A stretch of DNA of 64,000 bases from Halosegnis rubeus (GTDB lineage Archaea; Halobacteriota; Halobacteria; Halobacteriales; Haloarculaceae): NCBI RefSeq assembly GCF_009184545.1, contig NZ_QJOW01000002.1:310001-374000 (forward strand), read 5' to 3'. Position numbers and translations under genes: made by a program. Position 1 is the first letter of the stretch, and each line of letters opens with the position of its first letter. The notes below the pieces were generated by a model. It searched no databases, had not been told where the DNA came from, and saw only the letters and a program-made list of their open reading frames with translations. Shown here in pieces: positions 47,899 to 50,872 of this stretch.

Positions 47899-49200
47899 CT
47901 ACGGACTCAGACGTTGGCGATCGCGCGGGAACAACACCGCCTCGCGGATGTTGTCCAACCCGAGCATCGTCATGATGAGTCGCTCGCCGCCGATTGCCCA
48001 GCCGGCGTGTGGCGGCATGCCGTACTTGAACATCTTGGTGTAGTACTCGAACTCGTCGGGGTTGAGTCCCTGCTTTCTGAACCCTTCGACGAGGCGGTCG
48101 AAGCGGTGTTCGCGCTGCCCGCCGGAGACGAGTTCCATGCGCGGGTGCATCATGTCGAAGCCAGTCGAGAGCGTCTCGTCGTCGTCGTGGTCTTTGATGT
48201 AGAACGGCTTGATTTCCGAGGGCCAGTCGGTGATGAAGTAGTGTTCGCCGACGTCCTGTCCGAGCGCGTGCTCGCCCTCGGTCGGGAGGTCGTCGCCCCA
48301 CACGAGCTGCTCGTCGAGCTCGCCCGTCGCGTTGATGCGCTCGATTGCCTCCTCGTAGGTGAGCCGCGGGAACGCCTCCTCGGGCACCTCGAAGTCGTCG
48401 ATGCCGAGCGTCTCCAGCTCGTCCGTGCAGTTCTCGGCGACGGCCTCGTAGGCCGCTTTCGTGACGGCTTCACACACGTCCATCGCCTCGGTGTGGTCGA
48501 AGAAGGCCGACTCGAAGTCGATGGAGGTGGCCTCGTTGAGGTGACGCGGCGTGTTGTGCTCTTCGGCGCGGAAGATTGGACCGATCTCGAAGACGCGCTC
48601 CAGCCCGGAGCCGACCATCAGCTGTTTGAACAGCTGTGGCGACTGGTTCATGAACGCCTCCTCGCCGAAGTACGTGATCGGGAACAGCTCCGTACCGCCT
48701 TCCGTCCCGGTGGCGACGATCTTCGGCGTCGTGATCTCCGTCGAGCCGAACGAGCGGAACTCCTCGCGCACCGCACGCAACACCTCCGAGCGAATCTCGA
48801 AGATGGCCTTCGACTCGTCGCGGCGCACGTCGAGCGTGCGGTTGTCGAGGCGGGTTGGGAGTTCGGCGTCGACCTTGCCGGACGGGTCGAGCGGTAGCTG
48901 TGTCTCGGCCTCGGCGATGACCTCGATGTCGGTCGGGACAATTTCGACGCCCGTCGGCGCGCGCGGCTCCTCTTTCACGTCGCCGACGATTTTGACGACC
49001 GACTCGCGGGCCACGTCGAGTCCGGTCTCTACGAGTTCGTCGTCCATCTCGTCTTTCTCGAGCTTGACCTGAATCTTCCCGCTCGTGTCGCGTACGATGA
49101 GGAAGGCGATGCCGCCGAGGTCGCGCAGTTCGTGTACCCAGCCGGCGACGGTGACAGTGTCGCCCGGCGCCGCGTCCGCCGTGTACGTCCGTTCGTCCAT
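47899..49200 (-). CDS. aspS: Aspartyl-tRNA synthetase, archaeal (possibly non-discriminating)
   Basis: The 433-residue class IIb synthetase has an N-terminal OB-fold anticodon domain ([20 protein letters not shown]) and a catalytic domain with motif 1 [16 protein letters not shown], motif 2 [21 protein letters not shown] and motif 3 [20 protein letters not shown]. Short archaeal AspRS enzymes often charge both tRNA-Asp and tRNA-Asn when GatCAB is present; the sequence alone does not decide this. The C-terminus [10 protein letters not shown] is the usual haloarchaeal end. Confidence 0.95.
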
Positions 49201-49244
49201 ACGACCATTTCCTGCGGTCGCGACTTAAGCCCCGTCTTTCCGGG

Positions 49245-50019
49245 TCACTCGTCGTCGAACGTCGCGTCCACGAGCCGGGTGTAGCCGCGCCGGAGCCGCT
49301 CGCTCACCGCCTGCCCGGAGATGCCGAGCTTCTCGGCCAGCGCGGCCGTCGTCGTCTCTCGCGGCACCGCGAAGTAGCCGTTCCGGTATGCCACCGCGAG
49401 CGCCTCCCGCTGTTCGGTCGTCAGTCCGGGGGTAGGCCCGTGTGGCTCCTCCGCGTAGATGCGACGCACCTCCACCTGCACGCCCGCGTCGACCAGCCTC
49501 TCGTGGAATCGCGAAGTAGCCCCGCTCTCTCGCCAACGTCACCACCGCCTGCTGTTCTGGCGTGAGCCCGCTGTCGCCTTCGGCGTCCGACCTGTACTCG
49601 CGAAGCAGCCGGACCGTCACGCCGGCGTCGGCGAGCCACTCCCTGTACGAGGTGAAGATCTCGGCGTCGGGAAATCGGGTCCGCGCGTGCCACCACCCCT
49701 CCGCGTACTGGACGTGAAGCCGCTGTGCGTCGATGTCGACGAGCTTTGGGTAGGTCGTGTGTGCCTCGTCGGTCACCACGTAGCGGTAGAGCCGGCGGCC
49801 GTTCTTCTCCGTGAGACACTGTACGTCACGGACCGTCGGGTCATTCTCGGTTCCCGCCTCAAACGCCGTCGCCCCGTCCGTTACCCACGAGAAGTGTGCC
49901 GGCCGAGAGGGGTCTACGCCGACCGTCCGTTCGAGCACCAGTCGAATCGATCCCCGTGAGAACGTCTCTGTGAGGGGCAGTGCATCGGATTGAATGGCGT
50001 ACCGAGCAATCACGCTCAC
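49245..50019 (-). pseudogene. Bat-family HTH_10 regulator, frame-shifted hybrid of two paralogues
   Basis: From GTG 50019 the frame reads MSVIARYAIQSDALPL, the full N-terminal sensor part, then LTPEQQAVVTLARERGYFAIPRE at about residue 172, where the HTH should continue as TTTAALAE. Instead the sequence, near 49500-49510, jumps to the end of a sensor part (FHERLVDAGVQVEVRRIYAE) in another frame, which then runs through a second copy LTTEQREALAVAYRNGYFAV to a complete HTH (LAEKLGISGQAVSERLRRG). The GYFAIPRE and GYFAVPRE stretches occupy the same position in each copy. The simplest reading is a deletion that joined two tandem paralogues out of frame. Without a frameshift the product lacks its DNA-binding end. 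Confidence 0.72.
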
Positions 50020-50128: not shown

Positions 50129-50872
50129 TCAGGCCGTGTTGTCCGGGGTGCGTTCTTTGGCCGCGGCCTTCGCACCGTCGACCGTCTCGGCCACTACGTC
50201 TGCTCCCTCGTCGTGGATGAGGTCGCCGACGACGACCGTGTCGGCGTGGTGTCGCATCCGGTAGGCGTCGTCGTACGTTCCGATGCCACCGCCGTAGAAG
50301 AGCGTCGCCTCGTCCAGCGCGTCGTGGGCCGCACCGACGACGTCGGTGTCGCCGAACATCCCCGAGTACTCCACGTAGACGATATCCTGTCCGAGCATTC
50401 GCTCTGCGACGGTCGCGTACGCGGCCACGTCGTCGGCGTCCAGCTCGCAGTTCGCCTCGGTGTACGTCGCCACGGAGGCGTCTGGATTCATGATGATGTA
50501 GGCTTCGTTGAACGTCCGGTCCCAGTCGATGTGCTCGTCCGATTTCACCCAGTTGAGATGTGCGCCGGTCGTCCAGAAGGTGTCGCCGGCATTGAGCACG
50601 ACCGGAACGAGAAAGCCGTCGGGAATCGGCTCGTGGACGACTGCGTCGGCGTGTGACGGCTCAATGTAACAGGCGACATCGTGTTCGGCACACGCCGCCA
50701 GACACGGGCGGAGATACTCGCGCATCTTCTCTGCCGTGATGTCGAGCGTGCCGCCGATTTCGATGGCGTCGGTGCCGGTCGCACACACGTCCGTGAACGT
50801 CTCGTCGGCGTACAGCGTCTTGTCGGGGTCGAGTTTCACGATGTGGTCCCAGTCGGTCCACGGAGCGGTCAT
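50129..50872 (-). CDS. Geranylgeranylglyceryl phosphate synthase
   Basis: The 247-residue TIM-barrel enzyme makes the first ether bond of archaeal lipids from glycerol-1-phosphate and geranylgeranyl diphosphate. Family features include [11 protein letters not shown], the metal/phosphate-binding [41 protein letters not shown] (substrate contact) and [15 protein letters not shown]. It is transcribed alone, and its gene ends 37 bases after the minus-strand CDS boundary at 50129. ATG 50872 gives the expected length. Confidence 0.95.

Follow-up and report, generated by a model that had tools for sequence, protein, structure and literature searches.

An out-of-frame fusion of two tandem BAT/HTH_10 regulator genes in Halosegnis rubeus, most likely a recent pseudogene left by a single deletion of about 500 bp

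The regulator gene at 49245-50019 of a 64,000-nucleotide stretch of Halosegnis rubeus DNA (here called the window, whose positions are used throughout) raises the question of how a sensor with half of a helix-turn-helix (HTH) came to be followed, in a different frame, by the last part of another sensor and a full HTH. The genome (G000) measures 2.66 Mb in 12 contigs, and the gene lies on the minus strand. The first-pass annotation had described it as such a composite, with GYFAIPRE in the half HTH and GYFAVPRE in the complete one, and both the reading frames and Pfam comparisons confirm this description. The answer, which we give with high confidence, is that two tandem BAT/HTH_10 genes were fused out of frame by one deletion of some 500 bp, and that the result is most likely a recent pseudogene. 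The parts of the gene are as follows.

Front part: 49498 to 50019, minus strand; remnant of tandem copy 1, comprising a BAT-type sensor and the first half of HTH_10, ending in GYFAIPRE.
Back part: 49245 to 49497, minus strand; remnant of tandem copy 2, comprising a sensor end, a complete HTH_10 and the stop codon.
Deletion junction: 49498 to 49506, minus strand; the window reads CCACGAGAG, copy 1 of the related genome G001 reads CCGCGGGAG and its copy 2 reads CCGCGAGGC.
Out-of-frame tail of the front reading frame: 49225 to 49497, minus strand; ends in the stop at 49227-49225.

The front frame starts with GTG at 50019 and encodes a 264-residue product, a sensor without a complete helix-turn-helix. 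The back part is one base out of phase with it: the back frame, which continues from 49496, opens after the stop at 49541-49539, carries LVDAGVQVEVRRIYAEEPHG, then GYFAVPRETTT, then SERLRRGYTRLVDATFDDE, and closes at the stop at 49247-49245 (last sense base 49248). Each half is stop-free in its own frame, and from 49538 to 49248 both frames are open simultaneously. The intact second HTH could be made only via an internal start, for example the GTG at 49481 (78 residues). Annotation of open frames alone would give a 264- or 316-residue protein or a 78-residue HTH, neither of which is a normal member of the family. Searches for tRNA genes and against Rfam revealed no RNA gene near the fusion locus, the single tRNA gene lying far away.

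BAT (PF15915)/HTH_10 (PF04967) proteins are haloarchaeal regulators that we take to be the 'bacterio-opsin activator-like' family. The front product scored 23.6 bits against BAT, slightly below the curated cut-off of 25.8, and matched positions 1-24 of the 53 in HTH_10 (19.5 bits, slightly below the cut-off of 23.1), while the back fragment matched positions 1-51 of 53 with 63.8 bits, well above it. The two parent-type copies in G001 each have both domains (BAT 36.2 and 36.1 bits, HTH_10 58.5 and 58.7 bits, all above the cut-offs), whereas no single frame of the fused gene holds both a sensor and a complete HTH. An NCBIfam search with the four proteins gave nothing above any cut-off. Since the front product lacks, in its own frame, the complete HTH_10 expected of a functional BAT/HTH_10 regulator, the fused gene is most likely a recent pseudogene that would be non-functional.

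The origin of the two halves is evident from G001, a genome of the same genus, in which two intact tandem genes (C1:616339-616965 and 616975-617610) lie between GGGPS and aspS. The same neighbours flank the fused gene in the window.

aspS, downstream neighbour: 47899 to 49200, minus strand; which we take to encode aspartyl-tRNA synthetase; 97.7% identity to its counterpart next to the G001 pair.
GGGPS/PcrB-like, upstream neighbour: 50129 to 50872, minus strand; presumably encoding geranylgeranylglyceryl phosphate synthase; 95.1% identity to its counterpart on the upstream side of the G001 pair.

At the protein level the front half is 89% identical to copy 1 of G001, and the back half is 80% identical to copy 2 over 85 residues (0.807 over 83 codons). 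In trees of 20 rows the front half groups with G001 copy 1 and the back half with G001 copy 2, both with support of 100/100, so that both halves are orthologous to intact family members at the equivalent place. A 201-base query spanning the junction found two separate places in G001 and had no match in the remaining four genomes of the genus. The fusion is not a chance arrangement, because each half has its own intact orthologue, the two orthologues stand side by side in the same slot of G001, and it is there that the junction query splits.

Aligned as DNA, the window and G001 copy 1 run without a gap from 50082 to 49498 (500 of 585 positions identical), and the alignment resumes in copy 2 at 49497 (221 of 252 identical) after 500 bp that are missing from the window. 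One 500-bp deletion accounts for the difference between the window and G001, the only other downstream gap being one base directly past the stop codon. The break is located at 49506-49498, close to the 49500-49510 of the first-pass annotation, and its proposal of a recent deletion between tandem copies is supported by the intact pair in the equivalent slot, by the single deletion and by the bases common to the break points in G001. Since 500 is not divisible by three and the two genes share one phase in G001, the halves are out of frame.

The deletion joined non-equivalent positions, the break in copy 1 falling halfway through the HTH and that in copy 2 at the sensor end, which shows that it was not homologous recombination between equivalent sites. 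Homologous unequal crossing-over gives an in-frame chimaera, whereas the fusion here is out of frame. Possible microhomology had been suspected at the junction, and CCGCG is indeed common to both break points in G001, where the window has CCACG; the break points are otherwise unmatched, and this comparison was made in G001, not in the ancestor of this species. A shared run of at least five bases in a 10-position zone is found in 3.1% of random junctions between the two G001 genes, and in 1.2% if only the exact junction is considered; that the run is short, was read in the relative and has a chance level of only modest weight was counted against the deletion reading. Non-equivalent break points with these few shared bases fit the expectation of microhomology-mediated end joining, a pathway to which the pattern of bases points.

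One report on Haloferax volcanii gives deletions of 6-977 bp and microhomology of 3-5 bp for inaccurate end joining (PMC2700283), and another describes how, in mutants with enhanced self-targeting, microhomology-mediated end joining deletes within the targeted gene (PMC7521656). The roughly 500 bp and five shared bases of our locus fall inside the ranges of the former account, in which the events described are laboratory plasmid repair, whereas the one proposed here comes from a natural chromosome (PMC2700283).

The proposed course of events is as follows. The ancestral slot between GGGPS and aspS would have held two tandem BAT/HTH_10 regulator genes, as it still does in G001. One deletion, about 500 bp long, would then have taken the second half of the copy 1 HTH together with the beginning of copy 2 and the greater part of its sensor, presumably by microhomology-mediated end joining of non-equivalent positions via a short run of shared bases (CCGCG in G001). 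The fused remnant probably represents a step toward loss of the regulator pair. Deletion between tandem paralogues can yield fusion pseudogenes, and the locus shares with these the front of one copy and the back of the next, both intact in a relative. The kind of event is already known, and this locus is a clear example of it: a natural case, in a haloarchaeon, of an end-joining-type deletion that fused tandem regulators, both of which a sister species retains intact. With a close relative keeping both genes, it resembles ordinary gene loss seen while under way.

Alternatively, the strain might truly have two intact tandem genes, 500 bp having been lost in sequencing or assembly. The genome is a draft in 12 contigs and the paralogues share high-identity stretches; for example, a 59-base piece of the stretch missing relative to G001, from the HTH of copy 1, is 88% identical to the retained HTH. 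Yet the join is at non-equivalent positions, with five identical bases in G001 and outside the best shared stretch, and so few shared bases would hardly suffice for an assembler to collapse the copies. In addition, the missing stretch was not found elsewhere in the assembly, whether sought by DNA or by protein. As DNA, its best match in the window genome was the retained HTH, the other listed matches being short and weak (E ≥ 0.002); as protein, its best match was the front half (38%), followed by a paralogue (31%). A longer two-copy locus hidden by a sequencing error, which the first-pass annotation had offered as its second explanation, is therefore unlikely, and we consider an artefact of this kind improbable.

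That the deletion is recent is suggested by the state of the two halves. Relative to G001, dN/dS was 0.16 for the front half (bootstrap 0.09-0.25) and 0.44 for the back half (0.20-0.92), with 0.05 for aspS and 0.10 for GGGPS. Both values probably record mostly the time before the deletion. That of the front half gives no sign of lost function and was counted against the pseudogene reading, although it may mainly predate the deletion. Also counted against a deletion pseudogene was the dS of the front half (0.43), which exceeds those of GGGPS (0.27), the back half (0.23) and aspS (0.22).

Relative-rate counts (window:G001) with three outgroups were 5:4, 6:2 and 4:2 for the front half and 3:4, 4:1 and 4:1 for the back half, with no significant excess in either; the controls gave 4:3 and 3:4 for aspS and 3:3 and 4:2 for GGGPS. 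These tests are weak because most differing sites in both halves were undecided (11-14 per front test and 8-10 per back test). In the trees, the end branches of the two halves of the fused gene were longer (0.094 against 0.023 and 0.18 against 0.068), which points towards faster change, though not significantly so by the relative-rate counts. Relaxed constraint on these halves was considered and set aside, the counts, weak as the tests are, showing no significant excess. The event looks recent since both halves are free of stops in their own frames and neither shows a significant excess of change.

The tail of the front frame is not an old coding frame, because in G001 copy 2 the same frame has a stop at codon 31. 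Nor was selection on the out-of-frame tail accepted; its openness is weak evidence, since over about 84 codons the offset-2 frame is stop-free in two of six intact copies, with one stop in each of the other four.

The deletion could instead have made two split regulators that are still in use, one protein consisting of the sensor and an altered tail and the other of an HTH by itself, or else a fusion read by frameshifting that contains one and a half HTHs; we give these possibilities together little credence. Separate use of both remnants, with the sensor-only front product beside a free HTH of 78 residues from the GTG at 49481, would suit an intact back HTH (63.8 bits), two parts with neither stops nor significant acceleration and the existence in the genus of short open frames with HTH_10 (74 residues in G000 and G001, 77 in G003). 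A recent event accounts equally well for the intactness, however, and the interruption of the tail frame by a stop in G001 copy 2 shows that the tail is not an old coding frame, so that continued separate use is improbable. Programmed +1 frameshifting, by which a working gene would yield sensor, half HTH and second complete HTH in one protein, could draw on the two frames open together from 49538 to 49248 and on the intact back HTH, but it is very improbable, given that 19 of 19 comparison rows span the gene without a shift or an internal stop, that no relative examined needs one, that G001 shows where both halves came from, that the front frame runs through the junction without a stop and that the product would hold half an HTH in mid-protein.

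The content of the slot is variable. Across the six genomes of the genus, including that of the window, the GGGPS-aspS slot contains two genes in two (G001 and G002), one gene in two (G003 and G005), none in one (G004) and the fusion in one, and thus ranges from two genes to none inside a single genus. G005 is 67% complete, and its slot is inside a contig with both neighbours present. The first-pass annotation had suggested a look at close relatives for tandem regulators, and G001 and G002 each have two intact genes. A relative with the same single gene and a frame open through the junction, by contrast, was not found among the single genes of G003, G005 and G032, which align over their full length to the intact copies and have no internal stop. 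In G004 the front query had no match, and the GGGPS and aspS matches (C3:35354-37470) are 77 bp apart. The whole pair is gone there, since the gap region aligns to the end of G001 GGGPS and resumes just past the stop of copy 2.

In the family as a whole, at least 48 of the 57 genomes contribute to the listed matches to the alignment at E ≤ 1e-30. The surroundings were viewed at 24 loci (two of them second views), mostly with 1.5 kb on each side, in 22 distinct genomes including that of the window; the set was made up of those members of the genus that have the gene and of the highest-scoring loci, and was not drawn at random. GGGPS and aspS are both beside the gene in 12 of the 22, one of them is within the fetched stretch in five, and neither is in five. 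A tandem pair is present in three (G001, G002 and G013) and a single gene within the fetched stretch in 18, the window being the remaining one.

The intact pair in G013 (C1:485983-487333) belongs to another genus, as does the single copy-1-type gene of G032 (C1:1881955-1882590); contraction of the pair seems to have occurred more than once, because one of these genomes has the pair and the other the single gene. In the first tree the copy-2-type genes of G001, G002, G003 and G005 cluster (98/97), with G013 copy 2 adjoining (93/91), and the G032 gene groups with G013 copy 1 (98/96). The corresponding groups in the second tree have support of 99/96 and 99/97, G013 copy 2 being without a resolved place. 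This suggests an old tandem pair of which different lineages lost different members, although copy 1 of both G001 and G002 has no firm position in the trees and gene conversion could blur the pattern.

Two minor observations concern other members of the family. The 74-residue open frame with HTH_10 lies at C7:41436-41582 in G000 and at C1:975158-975307 in G001, where the surrounding DNA of the two genomes is 93% identical across 1302 aligned positions, and may be either a small HTH_10 protein in its own right or the last part of a gene that was broken earlier; G003 has a 77-residue open frame that holds an HTH_10. Elsewhere in the family, paralogues in G041 (C60:28124-28729) and G053 (C1:1465092-1465718) each have one TGA inside the match; the family is large, and these two may be additional members of it that have been broken.
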